Shown here: positions 42,153 through 56,758 of the stretch, piece by piece | Layout of the letters: each line of letters begins with the position of its first letter | Position numbering within the stretch: position 1 is the stretch's first letter | DNA from: Candidatus Omnitrophota bacterium | GTDB lineage: Bacteria > Hinthialibacterota > Hinthialibacteria > Hinthialibacterales > JAKPRU01 | DNA: 64,000 bases | Direction of reading: 5' to 3' | NCBI GenBank assembly: GCA_029570205.1 | Contig: JAKQSI010000114.1 | Location: forward strand, 39,939-103,938 | The notes under the pieces: model-generated | Databases searched by the model: none | What the model saw: only the letters and a program-made list of their open reading frames with translations | What the model was told of the DNA's origin: nothing | Program-made: the position numbers and the translations under genes

Positions 42153-45100
42153 CTACAAATTCACTTCATAGGTAATAAACGGTTCTTGTCCCAGGCCGTT
42201 TGTGTGAATCTCTTCTTTCCCCCCCGGATACAGGCGACGGAGATCCTCGATATATCGACGATGGCTATGGACGAGTAAAAACGATACCGGCCCGCGTCGG
42301 GAGATCTTCTGACGCAGGAATTCCTCCGGTTTGAGAACGTCTTCCCCTTTGGCTACCGGAGCCAGGAATCGAATCGTTCCATATTTCAAATACACATACG
42401 GCGGACCGAAGAAATACGTGTAGGAAGTCGGTCCGGCATCTTTCAGGTAATGCGCGATACGAGTCCACTGATCGACCATCTGCGGTTGCGCCATGATCTT
42501 GTGGAAATATCGTTCGACTCCTGTAATCAATAAAAAGGCCAGGAAAGCACAGAGCAACACGGAATGGACTCTCGGACTCCAGGTACAGCATCGTTTCAAA
42601 TGACTCCCAATTGCGCACGGAACGGGCGCGGCGACCAGGATCAGAAGCGGGACCAATCCAACCAGTCGCTGGTACGAGGGTGCATTATTAGTCAGCACAC
42701 TTCCGGTAATCAGCGTTACAGGAATCCAAAACAGGAACATCAACGTGGCCGGATACGTCAATTTCAGGAACAGTATTAACATTCCTGAAATCAGAAACAT
42801 GGCCGGAAGGGGGTCCAGGATACCGCCGGATACGCGGTTAATTAAATGCGGGCTGCCGTCCGGGTAAGAAATCGGGCTGAGCAGGCTACGCTCTATCTGC
42901 CCGCGAATCATGTCGATGTTTGAAATATCCGGCGGGTAGCTCTGCCTGATCATTCGTCGGCCTTCCTGCGAAAAGATGGAAACCCCGTCAGCCCGCGAGA
43001 ACAGCGCATTGGGACTCACCAGGAAACTTCCGACCAGCGGAGCGACGGTAATCCAGAACGCCAACAGAAACGTAGCCGTGTAAATCCATGCAATGTTCAG
43101 TGAGATTTGCCGTGTCAAAAAGAAGAGTCCCAACGTAGCCAACATCAAGGGCAGTAACAGGTGGGATGCCTGGTAAGAGAGGAGGCCAAGACCCGCAAGC
43201 CACCCCGCCCAGCAGAACGCTTTGGCCTCATTGTTCTGCAAACCACGAATGAGGCAATACAGCACACCGATAGTCAAAAGCATGGTTTGATTGTAACCGA
43301 TGCCCAATCGAGCGTAATGAATAACATACGTCGAAGTGGCGAATAAAAACGTTGCGAGTACCGAAGCAGACTGCGAAAAGAGACGCCGAGCTGTCAAGTA
43401 AAAAAGCGGAATAGTCGCCAGGGCAATCATCGCATCCGCCATCCGCATTCCGAACAGGTTGTCTCCGAACAGCCACATCACCCATGCGGGAATCAAAAAG
43501 AACAGGTTCGGGATCTGGTACCAACCGGGATCGAATATCGTCCATCGGCCTGAGTCGCGGACTTCGATACCGTGTAGCGCAACTTCCGCGGAATCCCCAT
43601 GCACATCCGTGGGGAAATCGGTCAGGCGGATCATATACAGGCACGCCGCCAGTAGAATAATCAGTAACACAAAAGTATTGGCTCGGGAAAAGTCGGAATC
43701 TGTATGTTCCCGAACAGAGAAGGGAAGGGCAAACGACACGCTTCCGATTCGCACAACAGTCTTGGAAGAATCGCCGTTCTTACGAACGGGAAAACAGGGG
43801 GCAAGTAGTACCCAAAGCCCGACCGGCCAAATCATTACCGCAGGATACCAGGGAAATCCGCGGCCGTTCAGGTAAAGATACTGACAAAAAAGACCGGCGA
43901 TGGAAAGAACAACCAGAATCAAAGATCGTTGAATGGAGAACGGAAAACGTGGACTATTCCCCCCGGGAAACCACAATTCCCCGGGCAGATAGATGTTGCG
44001 TGCATCACTGTAGCAGAACACCGCCAGAAGTGAGGCTCCAATCCAGAACGGGTAGTCGGGGTGATATGGGGGAGCCGAAACGGTTGCTGTCAGAGTCCGG
44101 TACGAAACGGAAAGAACCAGAGCATAGGCGAGGGGTATCAGGACCGAGGGCGCGATGCGGCGTCCCGCCAGAACAAAGAACACGAAGGCCAACCCCAGCA
44201 GTGAGTAACTATTGAAGGCATAATCCTGTAATAGTGCGCGAAACGGCTTCCGTGTGCCGGAAGCAGGGATTACACCTTGTGTGACTTGGAGCGGAGGCTG
44301 CGGTTGGATTCTTTGTTGCGGGAATCGACCGATTGTCGCACAGAGGTACAGGTTCTGATCCGGCAGAAATATGGCGGCCTGTATGCAATTCAGATGTTCT
44401 CGCACCACATCCAGCGTGCCGTCGGTTTTCCGTTTCACCAGTCTCCGGTGATCCGCATCGGCGACCAGAACATCCCCGGAGGGAAGAGGGCTCATCTTGA
44501 CCGGATGATCGAATCCGGTCTGTTCGGAAACGATTTCCCCTCGGGGCGAAATCTCCAGGAGACGGTGATGGTCGAAATCGCTGATGAGCGTATTCCCGTT
44601 TGGAAACCGCAACGCATCCATGGGCTGTAAGAGGTCTCGATTGTATGACCAGACCGGAGTTCCATCCTCCGCGATCTCCAGAATACTTCCTGCTGTCGAA
44701 TCGCAGATCAGGAGATTCCCGCCGGGAAGGAAGTCGGCATCAGTGGGGCCTTCGAATGGATAATTGATTTCGCGTTTTGTCTGTTCCTTTACGTCATAGA
44801 AAAAGACTTTTTTTGCCCCACGTGATGTCAAGAGGAAACGACTGGGTTCTTCGAGTACATCCACATCATGGAGTTCCTTTTCCAGAACCAGGGAGAACGT
44901 CTTCTCTTTCCCGGAGAAAATCAGGAGTTCTCCCGCTTCCGTAACAACTGCATAGTGATTCCCGGAGGGAAAGGCCTCGATGTCTGTCGGAGCAGCAGTA
45001 AGAGGAACGAATCCCAGAATCTGTCCTTCACCATTGAATTCCAGAACGCCGGAGGATGGAGCGCGATCGTTCTCCCATTGTGTCACCTGTCCTGACACAA

Positions 45101-45227
45101 GCGGGGATTGGACAAGGAACAAGATCCCAAGAAAAGAGAGAAGGAACAGCGATATTTTAACGAGTCTTTCCCGCGAAATTGAGAACGATACGAAGGAGAT
45201 TGATCTTTCCGAATACACTTTCCTCAC
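42153..45227 (-). CDS. Beta-propeller fused to GT39/PMT-like membrane glycosyltransferase
   Basis: 1024 residues. One N-terminal helix (about 23-45) is followed by an NHL/PQQ-like repeat region at about 60-335, with six repeats of the form FPSGNxYAVV, LPGGNLLICDS, FPNGNTLISDFDHHRLLE, LPSGDVLVADADHRRLVK. About 13 membrane helices then fill 340-960. The loop DFPTDVHGDSAEVALHGIE carries the acidic pair expected near the active site of PMT/ArnT-type lipid-linked sugar transferases. The C-terminal 70 residues are soluble. The GT-C half should move a sugar from a polyprenyl-phosphate donor to a periplasmic acceptor. The propeller may bind that acceptor or glycan. I do not know this exact domain order as a named family. 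Confidence 0.8.
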   Translation of the reverse strand: MRKVYSERSISFVSFSISRERLVKISLFLLSFLGILFLVQSPLVSGQVTQWENDRAPSSGVLEFNGEGQILGFVPLTAAPTDIEAFPSGNHYAVVTEAGELLIFSGKEKTFSLVLEKELHDVDVLEEPSRFLLTSRGAKKVFFYDVKEQTKREINYPFEGPTDADFLPGGNLLICDSTAGSILEIAEDGTPVWSYNRDLLQPMDALRFPNGNTLISDFDHHRLLEISPRGEIVSEQTGFDHPVKMSPLPSGDVLVADADHRRLVKRKTDGTLDVVREHLNCIQAAIFLPDQNLYLCATIGRFPQQRIQPQPPLQVTQGVIPASGTRKPFRALLQDYAFNSYSLLGLAFVFFVLAGRRIAPSVLIPLAYALVLSVSYRTLTATVSAPPYHPDYPFWIGASLLAVFCYSDARNIYLPGELWFPGGNSPRFPFSIQRSLILVVLSIAGLFCQYLYLNGRGFPWYPAVMIWPVGLWVLLAPCFPVRKNGDSSKTVVRIGSVSFALPFSVREHTDSDFSRANTFVLLIILLAACLYMIRLTDFPTDVHGDSAEVALHGIEVRDSGRWTIFDPGWYQIPNLFFLIPAWVMWLFGDNLFGMRMADAMIALATIPLFYLTARRLFSQSASVLATFLFATSTYVIHYARLGIGYNQTMLLTIGVLYCLIRGLQNNEAKAFCWAGWLAGLGLLSYQASHLLLPLMLATLGLFFLTRQISLNIAWIYTATFLLAFWITVAPLVGSFLVSPNALFSRADGVSIFSQEGRRMIRQSYPPDISNIDMIRGQIERSLLSPISYPDGSPHLINRVSGGILDPLPAMFLISGMLILFLKLTYPATLMFLFWIPVTLITGSVLTNNAPSYQRLVGLVPLLILVAAPVPCAIGSHLKRCCTWSPRVHSVLLCAFLAFLLITGVERYFHKIMAQPQMVDQWTRIAHYLKDAGPTSYTYFFGPPYVYLKYGTIRFLAPVAKGEDVLKPEEFLRQKISRRGPVSFLLVHSHRRYIEDLRRLYPGGKEEIHTNGLGQEPFITYEVNL

Positions 45228-45302: not shown

Positions 45303-45331
45303 AACGGGCGGAACCGAGGGTTCCGCCCGTT
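45303..45331. terminator. Hairpin terminator after hcp
   Basis: AACGGGCGGAACC and GGTTCCGCCCGTT form a perfect 13-pair stem around a three-base loop, 31 bases past the hcp stop on the minus strand, followed by TCTTGTATTC. The stem is symmetric, so it may also block transcription from the left. Confidence 0.8.
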
Positions 45332-45361: not shown

Positions 45362-47005
45362 TCAGCCGAGGATGGCTTTGAGGTCCTCATCCGGTGTGGA
45401 GATCGGTTGAATGTTAAATTTGTCCACAAGAACTTGAAGCACCATCGGCGTGACAAATGCCGGCAGACTCGGTCCGAGCCGGATATTCCTGATTCCAAGG
45501 TGCAGCAAAGTCAGCAAAATACAGACTGCTTTCTGTTCATACCAGGAGAGAATCAGCGAGAGCGGCAGGCTGTTGACATCCGTGTTGAAGGCCCCGGCAA
45601 GCGCCACGGCGATTTGAATCGCTGAATAGGCATCGTTGCACTGCCCGACATCCAGCAGGCGCGGAATGCCGCCGATATGGCCGAAATCCAATTTGTTGAA
45701 TCGGTATTTGCCGCAGGCGAGTGTGAGAATCACACAGTCATTGGGGACCTTCTGAGCAAACTCGGTGTAGTAATTACGGCCGGTTTTGGCTCCGTCACAG
45801 CCGCCGATCAGGAAGAAATGTCGAATGGCCCCGCTCTTTACAGCCTCAATTACTTTATCCGCGACACTCATCACGGCGCTATGCCCGAACCCGACCAGGA
45901 TTTCCTTGTCGTCACCGTCCTCCGCGAATCCTTCCGCTGCCGGAGCGGCTTCGATCACGGGCGTGAAATCGCGATTGGAAATATGCACAACATCCGGCCA
46001 GGCCACCAGGCCGCTCGTAAAGATGCGCGCTTTGTAGCTGTCTTTCGGTCTCTGAATACAATTCGTCGTCATGAGAATCGCGCCGGGGAACTCATCGAAT
46101 TCCTTCCGCTGGTCCTGCCAGGCGCCACCGTAGTTGCCGACCAGGTGTTTGAACTTCTTGAGTTTCGGGTAGCCGTGCGCGGGAAGCATCTCGCCGTGGG
46201 TGTAGATATTGATGCCTTTCCCCTCGGTCTGTTTCAGGAGTTCCTCCAGGTCTTTCAGGTCATGCCCGGATATCAGGATCGCCTTTCCCTTTTTCGGGGT
46301 GATTCGCACCGGAGTCGGCGCCGGGTCTCCGTACGCGCCGGTGTTTCCTTTGTCCAGCAATTCCATGGCTCGCAGGTTGACCTCACCGCATTTCATATTC
46401 ATGCCGATCAGGTCGTTGGTATCGGGTTTCTCTTGGGTAAGGAAATTGAGAGCCTCGTGGACAAAGGCATAAACCTGGTCATCCTCCTGTCCCAGGATTT
46501 GCGCGTGGTCGGTGTAGGCCGCCATGCCTTTCAACCCATAAGTGAGCAGTTGTTTCAGACCGGCAATGTCCGCCCCGACGACTTGTGTCTCTCTTGCAAT
46601 CCCGACCGACTCCGCTTGTTGAATCAGCGACGGCAAGTCTTTGGCCGGGGTCCAGGTTGCCGGGCCAGTCAATGATTCCGGTGTCTGTCCCGCCTTTCGG
46701 CAGGCCTCTTCGTACAATTTCTTCGCTTTGTCGCGGATCTCCACCCCGCGTTGGATCAACTGTTGAATCCGTGTCGGATCAAAATTGACATTGGTGACCG
46801 TTGTGAAAAGCGCCTCAACCGTGAACACATTCACTTCCCTGTTCGTTACACCCAGTTTTCGGGCACGATGAGCGTACATGGAAATCCCCTTGGCAACATG
46901 GACCAGCAGGTCCTGCATGGCTGCCGTGGTTGCGTCTTTTCCGCAGACCCCCATGGTCGTGCATCCGGTCCCTTTGTTTGTCTGTTCACACTGGTAGCAA
47001 AACAT
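45362..47005 (-). CDS. hcp: Hybrid cluster protein (hydroxylamine / NO reductase)
   Basis: 547 residues starting MFCYQCEQTNKGTGC. The N-terminal [4Fe-4S] ligands are Cys3, Cys6, Cys15 and Cys21 with the Cx2Cx8Cx5C spacing of the anaerobe type. Later motifs for the hybrid [4Fe-2O-2S] cluster are present, including GHDLKDLEELLKQTEGKGI, NIYTHGEMLPAHGYPKL, GNYGGAWQDQ and FFLIGGCDGAKTGRNYY. The enzyme reduces NO or hydroxylamine and catalyses protein S-nitrosation in some hosts. The ferredoxin-like gene 57 bases upstream would be its electron donor, but that gene is damaged. Expression is likely controlled through the palindrome at the upstream promoter. Length and all visible key residues are normal. 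Confidence 0.97.
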   Translation of the reverse strand: MFCYQCEQTNKGTGCTTMGVCGKDATTAAMQDLLVHVAKGISMYAHRARKLGVTNREVNVFTVEALFTTVTNVNFDPTRIQQLIQRGVEIRDKAKKLYEEACRKAGQTPESLTGPATWTPAKDLPSLIQQAESVGIARETQVVGADIAGLKQLLTYGLKGMAAYTDHAQILGQEDDQVYAFVHEALNFLTQEKPDTNDLIGMNMKCGEVNLRAMELLDKGNTGAYGDPAPTPVRITPKKGKAILISGHDLKDLEELLKQTEGKGINIYTHGEMLPAHGYPKLKKFKHLVGNYGGAWQDQRKEFDEFPGAILMTTNCIQRPKDSYKARIFTSGLVAWPDVVHISNRDFTPVIEAAPAAEGFAEDGDDKEILVGFGHSAVMSVADKVIEAVKSGAIRHFFLIGGCDGAKTGRNYYTEFAQKVPNDCVILTLACGKYRFNKLDFGHIGGIPRLLDVGQCNDAYSAIQIAVALAGAFNTDVNSLPLSLILSWYEQKAVCILLTLLHLGIRNIRLGPSLPAFVTPMVLQVLVDKFNIQPISTPDEDLKAILG

Positions 47006-47062
47006 AGCCTGATCTCCTTTTTCTATCCTGTTGGATGATTATTTTCTATTTTGGTTTCGATT

Positions 47063-47379
47063 TCAACTACCTGATATCGAGCCGGGACATTGAAAAGCCG
47101 GCTTTACAGCCGATTGGGGACCTGTCGGGACCTTTTGAACGGCCAAGTGTCGTTCCACCGCTTCCTGGTCGTATGCGTCAGCGACACGCTCTTCAATGGT
47201 GATTGCTCCCTGGGGGCGCTCGCCGATACATGCGCCGAGACCGTCGCAGCAGGATTCTTTGACCAATCGCGCCTTTCCGTCGATCAGTTGAATAGCCCTT
47301 CCGGGCAGGCATTCACACACAGCCCACATCCGTCGCATTTCTCTTCGTCAATCTTGATGATTTGCCTTCGTATGGCCAT
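47063..47379 (-). pseudogene. Frameshifted dicluster ferredoxin next to hcp
   Basis: The ATG at 47379, with GGAGAGAGG before it, reads MAIRRQIIKIDEEKCDGCG, then LCVNACPEG. The frame is then lost: GGG CTA TTC AAC TGA needs one extra G to continue as AIQLIDGKARLVKE. The second half lies in another frame and runs to the stop at 47063, with ESCCDGLGACIGERPQGAITIEE. The fourth cysteine expected there (GECPQG) is Arg, a second lesion. Both clusters would be affected. A one-base error in the G run of the assembly is possible for the first, but not for the second. The intact ancestor would have carried electrons to Hcp, so the pair is probably hcp with a broken donor gene, or with an unusual translational frameshift. 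Confidence 0.75.
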
Positions 47380-47410
47380 AACCTCTCTCCACAATTGTAA
47401 TCTATATTCT

Positions 47411-47452
47411 GGTACTACTATACCAGTATAGAAGCAAGAATCAAGAGCGCCC
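47411..47452 (-). promoter_or_regulatory. hcp promoter overlapped by a palindrome
   Basis: On the minus strand TTGATT (-35), a 16-base spacer and TATAGT (-10) precede the ferredoxin-hcp genes. CTATAC-CA-GTATAG, a perfect 6-2-6 palindrome at 47418-47431, overlaps the -10 region. A wider imperfect repeat (TATTCTGGTA and TACCAGTATA) extends toward 47406. It is a likely operator for a redox or nitrosative-stress regulator. Confidence 0.6.
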
Positions 47453-47485
47453 GGTATTTTTTATACGCACCTGTGGCGCTCTTGA
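47441..47485. terminator. Hairpin terminator between the desulfoferrodoxin gene and hcp operon
   Basis: TCAAGAGCGCC and GGCGCTCTTGA form an 11-pair stem around a 23-base loop. GTTTTTTTT follows on the plus strand and TTCTTGCTTCT on the minus strand. It closes the cyd-to-dfx operon just before the hcp promoter, with the -35 close to the stem. Confidence 0.75.
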
Positions 47486-47497
47486 GTTTTTTTTCGA

Positions 47498-47872
47498 TCA
47501 GGCTCTCCAAAGCCCGTGAAGGTTGCAGTACTCACGGGCGATGATTTCGGCGGCATCGATCATAAACACCGCCTCGGGAGCCTCGCCCGGTTTCAAGAAC
47601 TGCTTGTAAGACTTTCCGTCCGCAATGATCTCGATCCATTCGATGTAATGTTTTTCCTCCATCGGGTGAGCCACGCTGCCGACTTTGACCTTGAACCCGC
47701 CATCGATCTTTTCCACAACCGGCACATGCTTCTCTCTGGCGGCATCGACCGTGTTTTCCTCGAACAGTTTCATGGGCTGTCCGCAGCACACCAGCTGTCC
47801 CGCACCTTCGTGGAGTACTTCCACAATGTTGCCGCAAACTCCGCATTTGTAGATTTGCAATCGCTTCGTCAT
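47498..47872 (-). CDS. dfx: Desulfoferrodoxin (superoxide reductase, two-iron type)
   Basis: 124 residues. The N-terminal desulforedoxin site uses Cys10, Cys13, Cys29 and Cys30. The catalytic Fe(His4Cys) site uses His49, His69, His75, Cys116 and His119 (in EKHVP, VAHPM, EKHYI, EYCNLHG), with Glu47 next to the first histidine. It reduces superoxide to peroxide without releasing O2, using rubredoxin as electron donor; a rubredoxin gene lies at 54341. The peroxide would be removed by the rubrerythrin next door. AGGAG is before the ATG. The gene is the last of an operon that begins with cydA. Confidence 0.97.
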
Positions 47873-47919
47873 GTTTTTTTCTCCTGTTCTGATTGAGTCA
47901 GGGATACTGAAATAGGGAA

Positions 47920-48495
47920 TTACCAGTTTTCAGCCAGCAGTTCAAAATGAGCTTGGGGATGTGCGCAGGCCGGGCAGATTTGGGGAGCTTCCGGGCCTTC
48001 ATGAAGATATCCGCAATTGCGGCATCGCCACACCACCACTTCGGGCCGCTTGAACACGCGCTCGTTTTCAATATTCGCGGCCAGTTCCAGGTATCTTTTC
48101 TCGTGTTGCTTTTCCGCTACGGCGATGGCCTTGAGGATCGTGGCGATCTGAGGGAGACCTTCCTCTTCGGCGACTTTGGCGAATCCCGGATACATCTCTG
48201 TCCATTCGTAATGTTCCCCCGCTGCGGCGGCTTTGAGGTTCTCCAAAGTGGTTCCAATCACACCGGCCGGGAAAGCTGCTTGGATCTCGACCTCGCCCCC
48301 CTCCAGCAATTTGAACAGCCGTTTGGCATGTTCCTTCTCCTGATTGGCGGTTTCCTCGAAAATGTCCGCGATTTGAACATACCCCTCACTGCGTGCTACC
48401 CCCACAAAGTAGCTGTACCGGTTCCGCGCCTGTGATTCCCCCGCGAATGCAGTCAGGATGTTTCTTTCCGTCTTACTTCCTTTAAGAGCCATCAT
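47920..48495 (-). CDS. rbr: Rubrerythrin
   Basis: 191 residues. The diiron four-helix bundle carries Glu20, Glu53 with His56 (EKEH), Glu94 or Glu97, and Glu128 with His131 (EKQH). A C-terminal rubredoxin site uses Cys158, Cys161, Cys174 and Cys177. The classical order (diiron domain then rubredoxin domain) and length fit NADH-peroxidase-type rubrerythrins of anaerobes, which reduce hydrogen peroxide. AAAGGAG precedes two successive ATG codons, and the second (48492) is equally possible. The start overlaps the end of the permease gene by 14 bases, and the desulfoferrodoxin gene follows by 47 bases, so peroxide made by the latter is removed by this protein. Confidence 0.97.
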
Positions 48496-49783
48496 TCTTA
48501 CTCCTTTCTTTCCGAGATTTTTGCCTTATGCGATCATCACCTTCATGGGTGTTGTATCCGAGTGTTTCAACTGCGCTGCGCAAGGCCATTATATCAAGAT
48601 GGTCACCGGATATGGTCGCCATGCCGCTGCGCAAATCCACTTCTGCGGAAGCCACGCCGGCACATCCCATCAATGCCTGCCGCACCGCACGGGCGCAATG
48701 CTCGCAGGTCATGCCTTTGACCGGAAGGACAAAAGCATGTTCATTCTCACCAGGCTTTGCCGTCGACTGTCTTTTTCCCGACTTCGGCCACAGGGCAAAG
48801 GCGAGAACCGCCAACAAAATCACCGACCAGATCGCCTCCGTACTCGAAGGCGTCATGGCATGAAAATGCGGAATACCCATCCCACTGCCCGCAGGGTAAA
48901 CAAGGTTCAGAAACATCCCCGCGGCGAACGCCGCCACAATCACGGTTCCGAGGTAGATTGCGATAGCTCTTTTCCCCATCAGCTGCCAGACAGTGGCGAT
49001 GGTAGCCGCGTTGGTTGCCGGACCCGTCATAAGAAACACCAGAGCGGCGCCCGCCGTGACACCCTTTGCCATGAGCGCCGCTGCAATCGGCACGGAAGCT
49101 GTGGCGCACACATAGAGCGGAATCCCGACAAGCATCATAACGAACATTCCCAACACCCCGGTTCCCAGAACGCCGGAAAAATAGTCGTCCGGGATCAGGG
49201 CCGCGATCAAACCGGCGATCACCAATCCCACAATCAACGGACGACCGATATCACGAGGGAGAGTCAGGAATCCGTACCGAACGGCGCGCCGCCATGCGGA
49301 CTCGTGAATAGCCGGATTGCAGCACGCATCTTCACAATTCGATTGCTTTGAGGTTCTGCTTTCGCTGTCATTTTCGGAAACATCAACCAGAAACCCGCCG
49401 AGAACTCCCGTGATACCCGCCACCACGGGACGCAACACGGCAAACACCGGTCCCAAAAGGCTGAATGTGACCACAATGCTGTCCACGCCGGTTTGGGGTG
49501 TAGACAACAGGAATGCGGTTGTCGCGCCGGAGCCGGCACCGTGTCTTTTCAACGAGGCTGCGACTGGAATCACGCCGCAGGAACAGAGCGGCAGCGGGAT
49601 TCCAAACAGGGTCGCCTTTACAACCGGCCACATTCCTTTTCCGCCCAAATGATGTTCCACCGTTTCAGGTCGGATCAGCACGGAGAGAACTCCGGCCACC
49701 AGGAACCCGAACAAGAGGTACGGGGCCATCTCGCCCAGTGTGTTCCACATTTCCATCGGGATTGCCCGGATTGTTTCAATCAT
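48482..49783 (-). CDS. SO_0444-like metal efflux permease with C-terminal HMA domain
   Basis: 433 residues. Eight or more helices lie in two halves that share the DUF318/ArsP_1 permease motifs: [40 protein letters not shown] in the first half and [21 protein letters not shown] plus [12 protein letters not shown] in the second. A cysteine-containing loop (EDACCNPA) lies at about 150-160. A heavy-metal-associated domain at about 355-425 has [15 protein letters not shown], with the metal-binding CxxC pair. Homologues export Cu, Zn or arsenicals. The attached HMA domain could hand Cu(I) to the permease. Position between TIGR02757 and rubrerythrin in an oxygen-defence operon suggests metal homeostasis tied to iron enzymes. 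Direction of transport is not proved. Confidence 0.82.
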
Positions 49784-49796
49784 CTCGATCCATTCC

Positions 49797-50591
49797 TTAC
49801 GCTGCGCACTGTTTCAAAAATCCTTCCAGGTTTCCATCGTCTCGAATACCCAAACGGGTCAGGGCGAAATCGTATCGGACCGGATCCGTTGGAGCGATGG
49901 TCCTGAACGCGGCAGTGATCTCCATGGCGGTCCGAATATCCGATTGCGCTCTTGTTGTCAGTTTAAGCATTCGGCAGATACGATGGATATGGGTATCCAG
50001 TGGAACAATCAATTTCGACGTCGGAATCCTGTCCCAGCCGCCGGGATCGACGGCGTCTTTTCGGGCCATCCAGCGCAGAAACAGGTTCAGACGCTTGCAC
50101 GCGCTGCCCTTGCGCGGACACGGCAGCAGACTGTTGCAACGATTCCCAAACCCTACGGACAATTCATCTACAAAAAAGGACAACGCAGGCAAAATCGTCT
50201 TGTGGTCCCCGCGCCAATAATGCCCGAAGCATTCCTGTAGTGAACCATGTCGGTGAAGAACCGACTGAACGCCCAGCAGCAAGTTCACCAATTCCTCGCC
50301 GGATGTGAATCGGTGACGGAAATCCGCAAACGCGCGCATCAGCGAATCCCGCGATGCGCGTTGGATGTCCCTCGACGGACTCGGCAGGCGCTCCAACACC
50401 CGCGACACGCCCGCCAGGATCGGCTGAACTCTTCCATAAGCCAGGCAGGAGGCAATCAAGCCCACAATCTCCCGATCCTGCGGGCTCGGGTACGCATAAA
50501 GGAACTCCAACGGATCGGGATGCACGAATTCCCGCCGGTTGTATTTCCGGTATAGATATTCCAGCGCCTGCCTGTTCAACAGCAATTCCAT
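49797..50591 (-). CDS. TIGR02757/DUF2400 family protein
   Basis: 264 residues starting MELLLNRQALEYLYRKYNRREFV. It contains the family pattern DPLEFLYAYPSPQDREIVGLIASCLAYGRVQPI (about 26-58), then FRHRFTSGEELVNLLLG, a segment CPRKGSACKRLNLFLRWMARKD with two cysteines, and LIVPLDTHIHRICRMLKLT. The architecture suggests a HhH-type helical repair-like or iron-sulphur fold, as several relatives resemble DNA glycosylases. The biochemical role is unknown to me. Here it sits 14 bases before cydB and 13 bases after the permease start, all on one transcript. That argues for a housekeeping or stress role with the oxidase and the metal permease. Confidence 0.85.
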   Translation of the reverse strand: MELLLNRQALEYLYRKYNRREFVHPDPLEFLYAYPSPQDREIVGLIASCLAYGRVQPILAGVSRVLERLPSPSRDIQRASRDSLMRAFADFRHRFTSGEELVNLLLGVQSVLHRHGSLQECFGHYWRGDHKTILPALSFFVDELSVGFGNRCNSLLPCPRKGSACKRLNLFLRWMARKDAVDPGGWDRIPTSKLIVPLDTHIHRICRMLKLTTRAQSDIRTAMEITAAFRTIAPTDPVRYDFALTRLGIRDDGNLEGFLKQCAA

Positions 50592-50605
50592 GTAAACACT
50601 CGCGG

Positions 50606-51619
50606 CTAGTAGACTAATTCCTGTCGACTTATTTTATCTTTGAAAAGGTGATAAACCCATGTTTGGTACACAATGACAATCGGGATGAAAATCAACGCCA
50701 CCACCAGCATGATCGCGAGAGTCAATCGGCTGGAGGAAGCATTTGTAATGGTCAGGCTATAGGCCGGGTCCAAACTGGAAGGGAACAGATTCGGATACAG
50801 CCCCGCGACACCGAAGAAAGTACATCCCACAATCGCGAGGCAGGATGCGAACCACGCTTTCCACAAAGCTCTCCGGCACAGGAATAAGCGCGTGAGAACA
50901 AGTCCCAGCACGGCCAGTGCAGGGATGAGATAGAGAATCGGATGGGCCTGATAATTCTCATACAGCCCCGTGGCTTCCACGGACGCAATAAGGAAGATCA
51001 CGGCTATCGCTACCAGCACGAACCACAGATTGGATGACATGGAGATTGAACGTTGCTGCAAATCGCCCTCCGCTTTGATCGCCATCCATAACGCCCCATG
51101 GACTAAGAATAAAAGAACAAACAACAATCCCCCACAAAGGCCGTACGGATTAAGAAGTGTTAATAAATTACCTTGATAATAACCATTTTCGTCAATCGGG
51201 ATTCCACTGAAGATATTAGCGAAAGCGACCCCGAACAGCAGAGCCGGCAAGAAGCTGCCGACCACCATGCACCCGTCCCAGATCGGCCGGAGAACCGGAT
51301 GCTCGAACTTGCCCCGGAACTCAAACGCAATCCCCCGAAGAATTAAAGCAAATAAGATCAGCATCAGGGGGGTATACAATGAGCTGAACATAGTAGCGTA
51401 CATATTCGGGAATGCCGCAAACGTAACCCCGCCCGCAGTAATCAGCCAGACCTCGTTGCCGTCCCAGAACGGCCCCATGGCGTTGATAATGTTCCGCTTG
51501 TCGCCCTCGTCTCTCGCCAGGACCGGCAGTAAAGTCCCCAGCCCCAAGTCGAAGCCATCCAGCATGAAGTAGACCGCCCAGAGCAGTCCCCAGAAGAAGA
51601 ACCAGATGCTTTCAAGCAT
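50606..51619 (-). CDS. cydB: Cytochrome bd ubiquinol oxidase subunit II
   Basis: 337 residues. The ATG at 51619 follows GGAG and starts MLESIWFFFWGLLWAVYFMLDGFDLG, the family N-terminus; the longer frame was rejected. Further motifs are MGPFWDGNEVWLITAGG and the GVTFAAFPNMYATMFSSLY helix. The stop is 14 bases from the next gene. Eight or nine transmembrane helices are expected. With CydA it forms the high-affinity quinol oxidase that consumes trace O2 and conserves energy. The start overlaps the end of cydA by eight bases, so the subunits are made together. Confidence 0.97.
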   Translation of the reverse strand: MLESIWFFFWGLLWAVYFMLDGFDLGLGTLLPVLARDEGDKRNIINAMGPFWDGNEVWLITAGGVTFAAFPNMYATMFSSLYTPLMLILFALILRGIAFEFRGKFEHPVLRPIWDGCMVVGSFLPALLFGVAFANIFSGIPIDENGYYQGNLLTLLNPYGLCGGLLFVLLFLVHGALWMAIKAEGDLQQRSISMSSNLWFVLVAIAVIFLIASVEATGLYENYQAHPILYLIPALAVLGLVLTRLFLCRRALWKAWFASCLAIVGCTFFGVAGLYPNLFPSSLDPAYSLTITNASSSRLTLAIMLVVALIFIPIVIVYQTWVYHLFKDKISRQELVY

Positions 51620-52949
51620 GGCTCCATTCTCCTTTCGGATCAGGTGACAGCGGGCCAGGCCCTTTTCGTGCATATTTGAATAACAGGTAAAAGTCCGCCA
51701 GACCCAACAACGAGTACAGGAAAAGGAACGCGACCAACGATACAGCTACCTGGGATGCAGCAATCGGCGAGGCGGCCTCCGAGGTTCTCATTAGCCCGTA
51801 CACGATCCACGGTTGACGGCCGACCTCTGCAACAATCCATCCCGCCTCACAGGCCAGGTACGGGAGCGGAATGGAGTACAGCATGACCTTTAAATAGATC
51901 GGCGATTCCAGTACTCGATTCCGTAAGAGCCAGCCGAGAACGGTCAGGAAGAGAAACAGGAATCCTAACCCCGCCATGAGGCGGAACGACAGAAATGTCG
52001 GCAACACGGGCGGATGATCCTGTTCGGGGAATTCGTTAAGACCCTGTACGATCGCGGAGCGATTATGGAACGCGAGCATACTCAGCGCACCGGGAATGGG
52101 AAACATCTCCAGTCGGTTCCGGTTGTTCTTTTCGTCGGGGATAGTCAGCATGTATATCGGCGCGTTGGCGGTTGTCTCCCAGCGGGACTCCATTGCGGCC
52201 AGCTTAACAGGCTGGACCTTTGCTATTTCCGCGCCGTGGATATGACCTTCCATCACTTCCGCGATGGAGAAGATCAACGCGAACACGAGACCGATTCGAA
52301 AGGATTTCTCGAAGAATGCGATTTCCTGTTTCCTGAGAAGATGAAACGCGCTTACGCCCATTACAAAGAAGCCGGTCAGAATATACGCTCCAAACACCGT
52401 GTGGGAAAACTCCATCACGGCAAATTCCTGAGTTGCGACGGCGAGGAAGTCGGTTAATTCCGCTCTTCCGTTTCGAATCGCGTATCCGACCGGGTGCTGC
52501 ATCCAGGCATTGGCGATCAGAATCCAGAGCGCGGACAAATTGGATGCGATGGCTACCAGCCAGATTGAAACAGAGTGCATCCTCGGCGACAGTCGTTTCC
52601 AGCCGAACAGCCAGACTGCAATAAAGGTCGATTCCAGGAAAAAAGCCAGGGTTGCCTCGATCGCTAACAGGGATCCGAATATGTCGCCGACATATCGCGA
52701 GTAACGCGACCAGTTTGTCCCGAATTGAAATTCCAGTGTGATCCCAGTCACCACACCCAGCGCGAAGTTAATCACGAACAGCGTCCCCCAAAACCTGGCC
52801 ATGCGTCGGTAATCTTCATTTCCGGTCCGCACAAAAACCGTTTCCATAATGGCTATCAGAATCGACAGCCCCAGGGTAAGCGGAACGAATAGGAAATGAA
52901 ACAGGGTCGCGACGGCGAATTGAAGCCGCGAAAGCATCACAACGTCCAT
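51612..52949 (-). CDS. cydA: Cytochrome bd ubiquinol oxidase subunit I
   Basis: 445 residues with MLSRLQFAVATLFHFLFVPLTLG, the haem b595 histidine in LFHF and the second haem ligand in MEFSHTVFGAY. The Q-loop is short (VQPVKLAAMESRW), as in CydAA'/CIO-like or compact bd oxidases. A C-terminal GWIVAEVGRQPWIVYGLM follows. The protein sits in the inner membrane, oxidises quinol and reduces O2 to water without proton pumping. The gene probably starts the transcript cydA-cydB-TIGR02757-permease-rbr-dfx (spacings -8, 14, 13, -14, 47), so oxygen removal and repair of reactive species are co-expressed. Confidence 0.96.
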   Translation of the reverse strand: MDVVMLSRLQFAVATLFHFLFVPLTLGLSILIAIMETVFVRTGNEDYRRMARFWGTLFVINFALGVVTGITLEFQFGTNWSRYSRYVGDIFGSLLAIEATLAFFLESTFIAVWLFGWKRLSPRMHSVSIWLVAIASNLSALWILIANAWMQHPVGYAIRNGRAELTDFLAVATQEFAVMEFSHTVFGAYILTGFFVMGVSAFHLLRKQEIAFFEKSFRIGLVFALIFSIAEVMEGHIHGAEIAKVQPVKLAAMESRWETTANAPIYMLTIPDEKNNRNRLEMFPIPGALSMLAFHNRSAIVQGLNEFPEQDHPPVLPTFLSFRLMAGLGFLFLFLTVLGWLLRNRVLESPIYLKVMLYSIPLPYLACEAGWIVAEVGRQPWIVYGLMRTSEAASPIAASQVAVSLVAFLFLYSLLGLADFYLLFKYARKGPGPLSPDPKGEWSHA

Positions 52950-53099
52950 AAGAAATCGTTTCCCCCTTCCTGTGAATAAGCGATTCCGCTATTAGTCGAC
53001 GGTGTTCATTTCCCCCGGTATAGGATCGGGGCGACGGGGGCTCCCGGCGGCATCGATTTCTCGGCCACACATGCAGGGTATATCTTCGCTACACAAGAG

Positions 53100-54293
53100 C
53101 TACAGACGCTCATTTGCCGCCTTGCCGATCCTCCGGCCCAGCTCGACGCAGTTCGCCAAGTCCGCAGCGGTGGGCACGTATTTCACACGGATTCCGGGAT
53201 CGGGAACCTCGAATTTCATCTCCTCCATTACCTCGTTCAGCAATTTGACGGCCTCTCCACTCCATCCGTACGAGCCGAACGCCGCTCCGATCTTTCCCGT
53301 GGGTTTCAGTCCTTTCATGTATGACAGCATATCCGCCATCAGCGGCAACACGCCGTTGTTGATTGTAGAGGACCCCAATGCGATAGCTTTCGTATCAAGG
53401 ACTTCCGTCATGATGTCGTCCCGACTGTTGGCTCTCAGGTCGAACAGTCGGACACTCAATCCTTCCGATATCAAGCCGTCCAGCAGTGCGTTAGCCATTC
53501 GCTCCGTGCTGTGCCACATCGTGTCATAGACGACTAACGCTTTCGCTGTCGCCTCCTGTTTCGACCATTTCACATAAGATTGGAGAATCTTATCCACATC
53601 CCTTCGCCAAATCAGGCCGTGATCCGTTGCGATGGTGTCGAATACCCAGTTCCTCTCCCGGACTTCCTGAAACACGGCCGTGATCCGAGGGGAATACGGC
53701 AGGAGGATGTTTGCGTAGTACTTGGCCGCCTGCTTGAACAGTTCGGAGGAATCAACCTCATCATCAAACCGCGCGCCGGTCGCCCAATGCTGTCCGAACC
53801 CATCATGGGAGATCAGCAGTTTATCTTCGGGGATGAACGAAAACATACTGTCCGGCCAATGGACCATTCGGGTTTCCAAAAACTCGACGGTTCGTTTACC
53901 GAGCGAAATGCGATCCCCGGTGCGTACTACTTCGTAAGGCCAGTTGTCCTGATGGAAATGGTGCAGGAGGGCATCCTTGCCGTTCGGGGAGCAGAAGATT
54001 TTCTCCGGTTCGACCAGGGAGACAATCTCCGGCAGACTGCCGGAATGATCCATCTCAACGTGGTCAACGACTATGTAGTCGATCCGGTCGGGATCGATAA
54101 TCTGCCGGATCTTGTGTACCATTTCGTCACCGAACCCCGGCTTGACCGTGTCGAACAGGGTGACCTTTTCGTCGAGCGCCAAAAAGGCATTATAGGTCGT
54201 GCCCTGGTGCGTGGAGTAGCCGTGGAAATTGCGGACATTCCAGTCCACAGCTCCCACCCAGTAGATATTGTCCTTTACACGGACGGGTTCCAT
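53100..54293 (-). CDS. fprA: Flavodiiron protein (A-type flavoprotein, O2/NO reductase)
   Basis: 397 residues. The metallo-beta-lactamase-like domain binds two irons with HVEMDH (His78, Glu80, Asp82, His83), His145, Asp164 and a histidine in TDHGLIW. The flavodoxin domain occupies about 250-397 with YDTMWHSTERMA for FMN phosphate. Electrons from rubredoxin reduce O2 to water or NO to N2O. The rubredoxin gene lies 47 bases upstream in the same orientation, giving the classical pair of strict anaerobes. No extra C-terminal rubredoxin domain is fused, so this is the short class A form. Confidence 0.97.
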   Translation of the reverse strand: MEPVRVKDNIYWVGAVDWNVRNFHGYSTHQGTTYNAFLALDEKVTLFDTVKPGFGDEMVHKIRQIIDPDRIDYIVVDHVEMDHSGSLPEIVSLVEPEKIFCSPNGKDALLHHFHQDNWPYEVVRTGDRISLGKRTVEFLETRMVHWPDSMFSFIPEDKLLISHDGFGQHWATGARFDDEVDSSELFKQAAKYYANILLPYSPRITAVFQEVRERNWVFDTIATDHGLIWRRDVDKILQSYVKWSKQEATAKALVVYDTMWHSTERMANALLDGLISEGLSVRLFDLRANSRDDIMTEVLDTKAIALGSSTINNGVLPLMADMLSYMKGLKPTGKIGAAFGSYGWSGEAVKLLNEVMEEMKFEVPDPGIRVKYVPTAADLANCVELGRRIGKAANERL

Positions 54294-54340
54294 GTGTTGC
54301 CTCCTGTTGTATGGCGATCAGGGATGCAGATAGGTGTGGT

Positions 54341-54499
54341 TTATGCGGGGGAAAAGGCGTCTTTTCCGGCGCCGCACATGGGGCACACCCAGTCATCGGG
54401 TAAATCCTCGAATGCCGTTCCCGGACCGATCCCGTTGTCCGGGTCACCCGTTTCCGGATCGTATACATAGCCGCAGATTTCACAAATGTAACTGTCCAT
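54341..54499 (-). CDS. Rubredoxin
   Basis: 52 residues, too short for most gene callers. The iron site uses CEIC near the N-terminus (Cys6, Cys9) and CPMC near the end (Cys39, Cys42), with [11 protein letters not shown] and [11 protein letters not shown] between and after. The ATG at 54499 follows AAAGGAG by eight bases, and the stop TAA is at 54341. It transfers electrons one at a time, here to the flavodiiron protein next to it and probably to desulfoferrodoxin and rubrerythrin. All residues of the family are intact. Confidence 0.97.
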
Positions 54500-54628
54500 T
54501 TCGTGTCTCCTTTACTGTTTATTGTTCTCGGTGTTGACCGTATTCGTAATTGGAATGTTCCGATTTCCGCCGAGGCAAGACTGTCGACAATGTTTCCTGG
54601 GGTGACAGTTCTTTACCGGTACTGGGCG

Positions 54629-55144
54629 TTACGCTTGCGGAGCCGCCGGCGGCACAAAAACCCGGGTTCCCAGCTCACGGTCCATCATGAACAGTCCGCT
54701 CCGCGCGTCGCCGACCATTTTCAACTCATCCACGATTTGGCCGGCGGTGGATTCTTCTTCTACCTGCTCGGTAATAAACCATTGAAGAAATGTGCTGCAA
54801 GCGTGATCCCGCAGCTCCACGGCGATATCGGCCAGTTTGTTGATCCGCGCCGTTACGTTCTGTTCATGTTCGACTACCGCCTCGAAAGCGGCCAGGGGTG
54901 AGGCCCACTCGTTCGCAGGTGCGTCCACGGCTTTCAGAATCACGCGGCCTCCGCGTTGAATTACAAAATCGAACAGTTTCATGGCGTGTACCATTTCCTC
55001 CTGCGCCTGAACACGCATCCAGTTCGCGAATCCACGAAGGTTGATGTTCTCAAAATAGGCCGACATGGACAAATACAGATAGGCCGAGAACAGCTCGGCG
55101 TTGACCTGGTCGTTGATCGCATCCTGCATCTTGTTGTCGATCAT
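54629..55144 (-). CDS. ftn: Ferritin, bacterial non-haem type
   Basis: 171 residues forming the four-helix ferritin bundle. The ferroxidase ligands appear as Glu in QVNAELFSAYLYLSM (helix A), EEMVHAMKLFDF (helix B, ExxH), EHEQNVTARI (helix C) and a QWFITEQVEEE segment (helix D). It stores iron and, by oxidising ferrous iron, limits Fenton chemistry. The thiol-peroxidase gene is 29 bases upstream in the same direction and the rubredoxin gene 130 bases downstream. The last ten residues, rich in proline and alanine, are an ordinary variation. Confidence 0.95.
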   Translation of the reverse strand: MIDNKMQDAINDQVNAELFSAYLYLSMSAYFENINLRGFANWMRVQAQEEMVHAMKLFDFVIQRGGRVILKAVDAPANEWASPLAAFEAVVEHEQNVTARINKLADIAVELRDHACSTFLQWFITEQVEEESTAGQIVDELKMVGDARSGLFMMDRELGTRVFVPPAAPQA

Positions 55145-55173
55145 CGTTTCATACCCCTTTCTGCGGGTGTTGG

Positions 55174-55689
55174 TTATTTCAACTTCTTCACAGCGTCGAT
55201 AGCCGCTGCGTAGTTTGGCTCGTCGGTCACTTCCTTTACAATCTCCGCATAGCGGACAATTCCTTCTCGGTCCACGACATACACGGCGCGGGCCAGGAGA
55301 CGGAGTTCCTTAATCAGCAGGCCGAATGCCTGGCCGAACGATGCATTTCTGTGGTCGGAAAGAATGCGAACATGTTTCGCCCCTGCGGCGCCGCACCAGC
55401 GGGCTTGGGCAAATGGAAGGTCCATACTGATCGTCAGGATGTCCACGTCCGGCCCCAGCGCGCCGGCTTCCCGGTTGAATCGCTTGGTCTGTATGTCGCA
55501 AACCGGCGTGTCTAACGACGGCACAGAAGAGATCACGCAAATCTTCGCCCGGTACGAGGAAAATGTAACTTCCGACAAATCGTTACCCAATACGGTAAAA
55601 TCCGGGGCGACATCGCCGATCTTTACCTCGTTGCCTGCCAGAGTCAGCGGGTTTCCTCCAAATGTAATTACACCTGTTCGTTCGTGCAT
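55174..55689 (-). CDS. tpx: Thiol peroxidase (atypical 2-Cys peroxiredoxin)
   Basis: 171 residues. The peroxidatic cysteine is Cys64 in SLDTPVCDIQTKRFN and the resolving cysteine is Cys99 in FAQARWCGAAG, the normal pair for Tpx. TFGGNPLTLAGNEVKIGDVAPDF at the N-terminus, read as TFGGNPLTLAG and GDVAPDF, is typical. It detoxifies hydrogen peroxide and alkyl peroxides using thioredoxin, which is encoded at 11566-11895. GGAG lies nine bases before the ATG. It is between the ferritin and ferritin-like genes. Confidence 0.97.
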   Translation of the reverse strand: MHERTGVITFGGNPLTLAGNEVKIGDVAPDFTVLGNDLSEVTFSSYRAKICVISSVPSLDTPVCDIQTKRFNREAGALGPDVDILTISMDLPFAQARWCGAAGAKHVRILSDHRNASFGQAFGLLIKELRLLARAVYVVDREGIVRYAEIVKEVTDEPNYAAAIDAVKKLK

Positions 55690-55713
55690 CGTCGTTACTC
55701 CGATCCTTGATTC

Positions 55714-56151
55714 TCAACCGCAGGCAGGCATCCCTTGTTTAACCTGTTCGAGATCCTCCAGCATCAGGTTATGCTTTTCCTCATCGGCCAGGAGATATTT
55801 GATCAGATACTCCTGAATCGCCATTTTCTTGCCTCGCATGGCCTGCAAGACCTCTTCGCCCATCACAATCGTCTGTTTTTCAATTTCAATATGTTTCTCA
55901 ATTCCGTCCCAGACCCGCTGTAATTCGTCAGGATTGAGCGATATTGTCTCGTTCTCGAGGCTGTCGATCACCATCTGTTGAACCAGATGGTGCATCAGGG
56001 AATCGCGTTGAATGATTTCCATCAGCAGGTGGATGATCGGATTGTCGGACTGTTCCATGATCCACCCGGTTGACGCGACGGCCGTGTCCTCGACTTTCTG
56101 CCATTGTTTCATCACGGACCGTATTTTCCGGTGCAGCTCTTGGGGGCACAT
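55714..56151 (-). CDS. Ferritin-like helical protein of unknown function
   Basis: 145 residues, starting MCPQELHRK at 56151 with AAAGGAA before it. The sequence is almost all helix, with metal-binding-like repeats of Glu and His: RDSLMHHLVQQM, WDGIEKHIEIEKQTI and LLADEEKHNLMLEDLEQVK. The ExxH spacing in the last two segments suggests a ferritin-like diiron bundle, as in rubrerythrin relatives lacking a rubredoxin domain. I cannot name the family. Its location in front of tpx and ferritin, just downstream of the regulator gene, fits iron or peroxide handling. A TATAAT promoter at 56214-56240 could drive it. Confidence 0.75.
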   Translation of the reverse strand: MCPQELHRKIRSVMKQWQKVEDTAVASTGWIMEQSDNPIIHLLMEIIQRDSLMHHLVQQMVIDSLENETISLNPDELQRVWDGIEKHIEIEKQTIVMGEEVLQAMRGKKMAIQEYLIKYLLADEEKHNLMLEDLEQVKQGMPACG

Positions 56152-56213
56152 ACGATTCCTTTCTTGCATTCCCTGATGTTGGTGCGATCCGCCGGTTCCG
56201 GCTGACTCGGCAT

Positions 56214-56240
56214 ATTATAGCGTTTTCCGAATACGGACAA
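56214..56240 (-). promoter_or_regulatory. Promoter candidate for the ferritin-like/tpx/ftn genes
   Basis: On the minus strand a perfect TATAAT (56214-56219) has TTGTCC (56235-56240) at a short 15-base spacing, between the regulator stop and the next start. Confidence 0.4.
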
Positions 56241-56248
56241 CACGCGAT

Positions 56249-56638
56249 TCATTTTCTGTTTTTGCATCGAGGGCACACGCCCGTGAACGCCAGACGGTGT
56301 CCTGTGACCTCATACCCGGAAATCCTGCCGACTGTTTTCTCCACATCCGCGTTCAGATCGTACCCGACATCATCCACGCGACCGCAACACGTACACAGAA
56401 TATGATTGTGCCTCGATATGTTCCGGTCAAAATGTCTCTTGGAGCCTCCCATCTTCAGGGTTCTGACCATTCCGGACTCCGAAAGCGCCTGTAGGTTCCG
56501 ATACACGGTTCCCAAGCTGATTCGGGGAAGAGATTTCCTCGCCATCTCGTATATCTCCGATGCCGTCGGATGCCCGCTCGATTCTCGAATCACGTTGAGA
56601 ATGACCTGACGCTGCCGGGTCATTCTGTGTTCTGTCAT
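56249..56638 (-). CDS. perR: Fur-family regulator, PerR-like
   Basis: 129 residues from MTEHRMTRQRQVIL; a TTG three codons upstream is possible. The winged-helix DNA-binding half contains TASEIYEMARKSLPRISLGTVYRNLQALSESGMV. The metal half has HFDRNISRHNHILCTCCGRVDDV and a second CxxC in GVCPRCK, which together make the structural zinc site. HFD and HNH supply ligands for the regulatory metal. The combination is more like PerR, the peroxide sensor, than Fur, and the surrounding genes agree. It is probably the regulator of this whole island, including itself through the box at 56664-56682. Confidence 0.88.
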   Translation of the reverse strand: MTEHRMTRQRQVILNVIRESSGHPTASEIYEMARKSLPRISLGTVYRNLQALSESGMVRTLKMGGSKRHFDRNISRHNHILCTCCGRVDDVGYDLNADVEKTVGRISGYEVTGHRLAFTGVCPRCKNRK

Positions 56639-56663
56639 TTCTTTCAAGATACTTGCCTCTTTC

Positions 56664-56682
56664 GATAATAGTAACCATTCTC
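56664..56682. promoter_or_regulatory. Fur/PerR-box-like inverted repeat
   Basis: GATAATAGTAACCATTCTC has 7 of 9 complementary positions around a single central base and resembles the GATAATGATAATCATTATC-type Fur box. It lies 26-44 bases upstream of the perR ATG, which is suited to autoregulation. Confidence 0.55.
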
Positions 56683-56758
56683 ACTTCATTACAAAGGGTG
56701 ACTTCCCCCGAATTGGGAAAAATGATTGGAATCCTGTCCTTGGAAGCACTTTTTCGCC

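Follow-up and report, generated by a model that had tools for sequence, protein, structure and literature searches.

8-Oxoguanine is a major mutagenic lesion of DNA, and MutM (Fpg) is the textbook enzyme that removes it in bacteria; several bacteria lack MutM. In Borrelia burgdorferi, MutM, MutY and EndoVIII were reported to be absent and 8-oxoguanine to be undetectable after oxidant treatment (PMC2327290), and in Porphyromonas gingivalis repair of this lesion has been ascribed, perhaps, to 'a still undescribed mechanism' (PMC3747172). Extracts of the latter yielded a 28-mer product and not the Fpg-type 25-mer (PMC3747172); since a 28-mer is not expected from a simple glycosylase/lyase, P. gingivalis is taken here as a lead and not as support. 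The present analysis concerns a 64,000-nucleotide stretch of a Candidatus Omnitrophota genome (contig JAKQSI010000114.1; hereafter the window) and, within it, a gene of family TIGR02757 (DUF2400) that lies in an array of oxygen-defence genes. We consider it likely that this island is the oxygen-defence array of a MutM-less anaerobe, and that TIGR02757 belongs to the HhH-GPD glycosylases and replaces MutM, with 8-oxoguanine as its probable lesion. The probable assignment of TIGR02757 to the HhH-GPD glycosylases as a MutM substitute is what is new, the remaining genes of the island being standard. The family is a hypothetical equivalog in NCBIfam (June 2026) and DUF2400 in Pfam, and a literature search returned no published function for it, DUF2400 being named only in passing and TIGR02757 not at all.

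Among described enzymes, AGOG, like DUF2400, belongs to the HhH-GPD superfamily, is all-helical and has an unusual hairpin (PMC9638937, PMC3397491), its members deviating from the canonical HhH hairpin (PMC3397491). The AGOG residues K140 and D172, shown to be essential, are 32 residues apart (PMC9638937); the predicted catalytic Lys and Asp of DUF2400 are similarly widely spaced (33 residues), which is nearer to AGOG than to Nth. By published numbering, on which all residue equivalences between DUF2400 and AGOG rest, the 8-oxoguanine-contacting Lys149 of AGOG is at Lys+7, the position at which DUF2400 carries the near-invariant Arg173; this is a lead and not a test. The P. furiosus structure 1xg7, which served as the AGOG search model (PMC9638937), was among the few Foldseek matches of our model (1xg7_B, probability 0.97, E 0.17), and was not among the best 50 VIA-align rows. 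AGOG differs in that it has been described as archaeal only, whereas DUF2400 is bacterial here, with putative lesion-recognition residues, and no match of DUF2400 to AGOG at E ≤10 appeared in Pfam or among PDB sequences.

Nth and MutY share with DUF2400 the fold (Z 12.7–13.9), the catalytic Asp in a DTH motif and a Lys that starts the preceding helix, whereas DUF2400 lacks the GVG hairpin, shows no four-Cys cluster motif conserved across the aligned family, and has a longer Lys–Asp spacing than Nth. With MutM/Fpg the likeness is the proposed job and a complementary occurrence, although MutM belongs to an unrelated fold family (H2TH) and TIGR02757 gave no match to its PF01149 domain. At the level of the locus, the deltaproteobacterial clusters perR-rbr-roo (Geobacter) and perR-rbr-rdl (D. 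vulgaris) are known (PMC545781); unlike these PerR/rubrerythrin/flavodiiron clusters, the window also has cydAB, DUF2400, a Cu/Zn exporter, tpx, ferritin and hcp.

An AlphaFold2 model of TIGR02757, built with 27 relatives, had a predicted local distance difference test (pLDDT) score of 91.4 and a predicted template modelling (pTM) score of 0.90, and adopts the two-domain, all-helical HhH-GPD fold. In VIA-align comparisons the best match to this model was Endonuclease III (Z 13.9, 198 of 213 residues, 3.9 Å), followed by MutY (Z 12.7), MjOgg (12.2) and other archaeal and bacterial 8-oxoguanine glycosylases (11–12), with OGG2 and MagIII also at Z >10. Likewise, every Foldseek match with probability >0.9 was an HhH-GPD enzyme. 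The evidence from sequence, namely invariant residues and profile alignment, is independent of the structure model. K166, D199 and R94 were identical in 151/151 distinct family sequences, and R173, W174, H201, D236 and D241 each differed in at most two. When DUF2400 was compared by hhalign with Nth of the window's own phylum, the two aligned over LDTHIHRI/VDTHVQRV with 85–91% probability (E 6e-6 to 1e-6), and end-to-end alignment laid KGSACKRLNL on GVGRKTANV, which places K166 on the catalytic Lys of Nth. D199 aligned with the Asp of the Nth VDTH motif, and so takes the predicted place of the catalytic Asp of the HhH-GPD superfamily, while K166, at a helix start in the model, would correspond to the catalytic Lys of its bifunctional members. 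Taken together, model and alignments indicate that TIGR02757 is an HhH-GPD-fold protein.

To this can be added the distribution of the family relative to MutM. Fpg (PF01149) was counted in the same draft genomes as DUF2400, and exclusion of Fpg was seen in four phyla. In the largest phylum (247 genomes), DUF2400 was present in 108 genomes and Fpg in 122, with both in 13 against an expectation of 53.3 (odds ratio 0.038, p 7e-27). Of these genomes, 204 (83%) carried one gene without the other and 30 (12%) carried neither, the latter not far from expectation for incomplete genomes. MutY was neutral with respect to DUF2400 in this set (odds ratio 0.87, p 0.69), and the exclusion held in both MutY-positive and MutY-negative genomes. 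Similarly, 35 spirochaete genomes had DUF2400 and 29 had Fpg, with none carrying both versus 8.5 expected (p 1e-5), or versus 3.5 expected when stronger Fpg matches only were counted. Within the window's own phylum, the three DUF2400 genomes lacked Fpg and the 10 Fpg genomes lacked DUF2400 (both in 0 versus 2.1 expected, p 0.011), a pattern that spans five families and is consistent with more than one switch. A search of the window's whole genome for Fpg (PF01149) found none, and a MutY-type protein (L210) is present. The control genome of Bacteroides ihuae was among the DUF2400 controls and not among the Fpg controls. The genomes with both genes in the largest phylum are G054, G064, G087, G092, G106, G126, G181, G211, G224, G229, G234, G256 and G257, of which at least G106 has only a weak partial DUF2400 match.

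These counts also bear on the lesion. Substrates of HhH-GPD-fold enzymes are diverse, and Endonuclease III and MagIII stand among the closest folds besides the 8-oxoguanine enzymes, so that DUF2400 might be an HhH-GPD DNA glycosylase for another lesion (an oxidised pyrimidine, uracil or an alkylated purine), with Fpg exclusion arising from lineage or lifestyle. We regard this as unlikely: the exclusion is with Fpg while MutY is neutral, the excess of genomes with exactly one gene looks like replacement and not independent loss, and several other HhH-GPD proteins are already present in genome G000.

The gene neighbourhoods of TIGR02757 were compared across 151 loci (mutually <80% identity) from the phyla of three relatives. 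The genes of these regions were called and clustered without prior labels, with the exception that gene picking gave preference to window-like proteins, and oxygen-defence genes were counted as rbr, dfx, tpx, flavodiiron protein, perR, hcp and rubredoxin. Rubrerythrin and dfx were among the commonest TIGR02757 neighbours. Oxygen-defence genes occupied 52/840 positions within three genes of TIGR02757 (21/295 at a distance of one gene, 18/276 at two and 13/269 at three) versus 6/881 at six or more, an internal control against which the flanks are ~ninefold denser. The oxygen context recurred with differing gene orders: hcp-DUF2400-rbr-tpx-dfx in Elusimicrobia (L017, L144), perR-DUF2400-dfx-rubredoxin-flavodiiron protein in Spirochaetes (L168), perR-DUF2400-permease-...-rbr-dfx-tpx-ferritin in the window's own class (L129), dfx-ferritin-...-flavodiiron protein-rubredoxin-DUF2400-rbr in L088, and again in the deltaproteobacterial L076. 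On the DUF2400 tree, the oxygen-neighbour state changed 15 times, with at least three changes forced by supported branches.

The initial annotation had set beforehand, as a refuting test, a random neighbourhood of TIGR02757 and the adjacent permease gene in relatives; the test was run and did not refute the reading, given this enrichment and a neighbouring permease in 5/151 loci. Its further suggestion that TIGR02757 has a role in oxygen tolerance, which came without a mechanism, is partly borne out by the enrichment beside oxygen genes in other phyla, albeit in a minority of loci; the results point to repair of oxidised DNA as that role. It is in turn quite unlikely that this is an ordinary oxygen-defence cluster in which DUF2400 and the permease are passengers: the small number of loci with either kind of neighbour would suit such an origin, but not the local enrichment, its reappearance in other gene orders among Elusimicrobia, Spirochaetes, deltaproteobacterial genomes and members of the window's own class, or the position of the permease immediately downstream in 5/5 cases.

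That DUF2400 is instead an RNA-acting enzyme, or a nucleoside or nucleotide N-glycosidase of the queuosine-salvage kind (DUF2419/Qng1), is very unlikely, for although DUF2419 structures share the fold and the wide spacing of DUF2400 and AGOG between their mutated residues (K199 and D231 by entry titles), EndoIII, MutY and OGG score higher (12–14), no queuosine genes are among the recurrent DUF2400 neighbours, and queuine salvage would lead one to expect neither the Fpg exclusion nor the links to oxygen-defence genes and to RuvA/YebC.

Several observations weigh against TIGR02757 as an 8-oxoguanine glycosylase in place of MutM. Helical folds readily yield middling structural scores, and no Foldseek match had E <0.001; DUF2419 structures reached Z 11.5 with the model, a fold common to both that leaves a DNA substrate unproved. 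Sequence identity between DUF2400 and solved glycosylases is 7–17%, the canonical hairpin LPGVGxKT (GVG) is absent, with KGSACKR in its place, and the Pfam HhH-GPD model PF00730 matched below threshold (13.3 bits versus a cut-off of 26.2, E 0.05–0.11). The hhalign comparison of DUF2400 with a MutY profile gave no significant match, and an hmmsearch of PDB sequences returned nothing above noise; of its lines only that for Endonuclease III (E 0.29) was relevant. As to distribution, Elusimicrobia (DUF2400 in 24 genomes, Fpg in 8, both in 0 versus 1.9 expected) are not significant alone (p 0.19), Fpg counts come from draft genomes with p values that ignore phylogeny (the correction being incomplete), and 13 genomes do carry both genes. 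On a MutY tree drawn from the largest phylum, with 20 genomes that have DUF2400 alone and 20 that have Fpg alone, the label switched ~5 times, at least three of these switches being supported; the genomes were chosen as exclusive, and the tree therefore informs the number of switches and not the exclusion itself. The survey of known 8-oxoguanine repair enzymes in these genomes covered Fpg and, in the largest phylum, MutY. Finally, same-strand oxygen genes lay within five genes of TIGR02757 in only 20/151 loci, with none in the other 131.

With these points set against the evidence from fold, residues, neighbours and distribution, we lean, with somewhat less assurance than for the island as a whole, towards TIGR02757/DUF2400 as a fourth HhH 8-oxoguanine DNA glycosylase family beside OGG1, OGG2 and AGOG, widespread in MutM-less anaerobic and host-associated bacteria. 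If true, this would answer how such bacteria repair 8-oxoguanine and would provide a function for a family that is annotated only as 'protein of unknown function' and was found in 104/247 genomes of one phylum in the search for the family (108 in the comparison with Fpg). The right fold, catalytic residues, neighbours and complementary distribution make the question of MutM-less repair directly testable.

The island itself is a minus-strand array (45362–56647) in which 13 genes are intact and a ferredoxin gene is broken, with small intergenic distances (-62 to 150 bp). Its features, in order of transcription, are as follows.

56249..56647, minus strand: Fur-family regulator, PerR-like (Pfam FUR 1.5e-29; start at 56647 TTG or 56638 ATG)
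55714..56169, minus strand: small helical protein of 151 aa with an EExxH motif, read as ferritin-like
55174..55689, minus strand: thiol peroxidase Tpx (NCBIfam 198.8 bits, cut-off 123)
54629..55144, minus strand: ferritin (Pfam Ferritin 2e-45)
54341..54499, minus strand: rubredoxin (NCBIfam RubredRD 106.9 bits, cut-off 90)
53100..54293, minus strand: flavodiiron protein, ODP plus flavodoxin (Pfam; best NCBIfam relation flavorubredoxin, under cut-off)
51612..52949, minus strand: CydA, cytochrome bd oxidase subunit I (Pfam 590.9 bits)
50606..51673, minus strand: CydB, cytochrome bd oxidase subunit II (Pfam 347 bits; TIGR00203 above cut-off)
49797..50591, minus strand: DUF2400/TIGR02757, predicted HhH-GPD N-glycosylase with predicted catalytic K166 and D199 (195 bits, cut-off 139.2)
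48482..49783, minus strand: SO_0444-family Cu/Zn efflux permease (ArsP_1) with a C-terminal HMA domain (MTCEHC) (NF033936 351.8 bits, cut-off 300)
47920..48495, minus strand: rubrerythrin (NF045767 303 bits, cut-off 200)
47498..47872, minus strand: desulfoferrodoxin / superoxide reductase (TIGR00320 226 bits, cut-off 146.9)
47430..47486, minus strand: hairpin 3' of dfx, predicted end of the cydA-dfx block (z -3.4 versus shuffled sequence)
47063..47381, minus strand: ferredoxin gene relic (alignment with the intact congener gene, L188:3495-4250)
45362..47005, minus strand: hybrid cluster protein Hcp (NF003658 848 bits, cut-off 367)
45303..45331, minus strand: predicted intrinsic terminator with a 13-bp stem, downstream of hcp (the congener L188 carries the same stem)

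The initial annotation had listed fourteen same-strand features in this order with few gaps, and all were found, their identities holding in Pfam and NCBIfam searches. The PerR-like gene belongs to the FUR superfamily and scored 109–110 bits against NCBIfam PerR models, under their cut-offs (180–200), so that it may be a PerR or a Fur. Its reading of the known genes as defence against superoxide, peroxide, O2 and nitric oxide (NO) is sound. Superoxide reductase, rubrerythrin, Tpx, flavodiiron protein with rubredoxin, and cytochrome bd would remove these species, while ferritin and the Cu/Zn exporter would limit redox-active metal. TIGR02757, presumably bound to DNA and co-regulated with the island, would flip an oxidised purine base, with 8-oxoguanine the likeliest candidate, out of the helix; K166, assisted by D199, would attack C1' through a Schiff base, and a putative apurinic/apyrimidinic (AP)-lyase activity would then cut the strand. 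The enzyme would thus excise, in a genome without Fpg, the lesion handled by MutM/Fpg elsewhere. Prevention and repair may be combined here, the TIGR02757 gene being flanked on one side by genes for a respiratory O2 sink and on the other by those for the Cu/Zn exporter and the peroxide and superoxide scavengers.

The genes cydA-cydB-TIGR02757-permease-rbr-dfx form a tight block (successive spacings: overlap, 14, 13, overlap and 47 bp). The shared transcript of the initial annotation, if taken to span all 14 genes, is unlikely and was rejected, because the conserved hairpin at 47430–47486 argues for at least two units. Its pairing is kept in the congener L188 by a two-sided change (GAGCGCC/GGCGCTC to GAGCACC/GGTGCTC), and the T-run that follows it in L188 makes a terminator likely at the dfx/relic hairpin. 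Since a separate upstream region lies between this hairpin and the ferredoxin relic, relic and hcp are probably their own transcription unit, ending at the strong predicted terminator at 45303..45331. Further promoters may lie in the ferritin/rubredoxin gap (129 bp) and the flavodiiron protein/cydA gap (150 bp). A search of the window for PerR boxes gave no clear excess (13 matches versus 11.4 by chance), the best site, at 56667–56685, having three mismatches. An inverted repeat, CTGGTA-N6-TACCAG, before the relic is partly kept in the congener and was seen in no other locus; no regulator is claimed for it.

The relic, as had been proposed, is truly broken. Compared with the intact gene of ~250 codons in L188, assigned to the same genus in the genome table, it lacks a single base and approximately the last two thirds (3'), and carries Arg in place of a cluster Cys. 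Hcp in the window genome is therefore apparently without its usual partner ferredoxin, which was lost here but is intact in the congener.

The permease scores above the curated cut-off of the SO_0444 Cu/Zn efflux transporter (NF033936) and differs from it by a fused C-terminal CopZ-like HMA domain. In all five permease-adjacent loci it lies immediately downstream of DUF2400 on the same strand, and in two of them (L059, L079) the pair occurs without oxygen genes, upstream of a YebC...RuvA cluster. Of the proposed role for the permease in oxygen tolerance, the recurrent adjacency to DUF2400 stands, but the evidence points to metal efflux that is not oxygen-specific.

YebC and RuvA form a second recurrent context of DUF2400. 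One or both follow it in L013, L015, L059 and L079, a DNA-repair context without oxygen genes, in some cases with an intervening 166-aa gene. A CRP/FNR-type regulator lay near DUF2400 on the same strand in 11 loci (L090, L117, L049, L123, L089 and L034 among them), and hcp/ferredoxin or a gene for a NIR_SIR-domain protein is close by in some of these, which suggests an HcpR-like context. TIGR02757 is also present in three spirochaete genomes with main replicons of 0.91–0.93 Mb, and in the spirochaete locus L155 an endonuclease/exonuclease-family gene nearby reads as XthA; these genomes may link the family to Borrelia. No family was found for the 151-aa protein (55714..56169) in the Pfam search; a homologue (50% identity) adjoins dfx and ferritin in L078. 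Directly downstream of hcp, at 42153–45227, lies a gene, also present in L188, whose 1024-aa product combines NHL-like repeats with a PMT_2 mannosyltransferase region.

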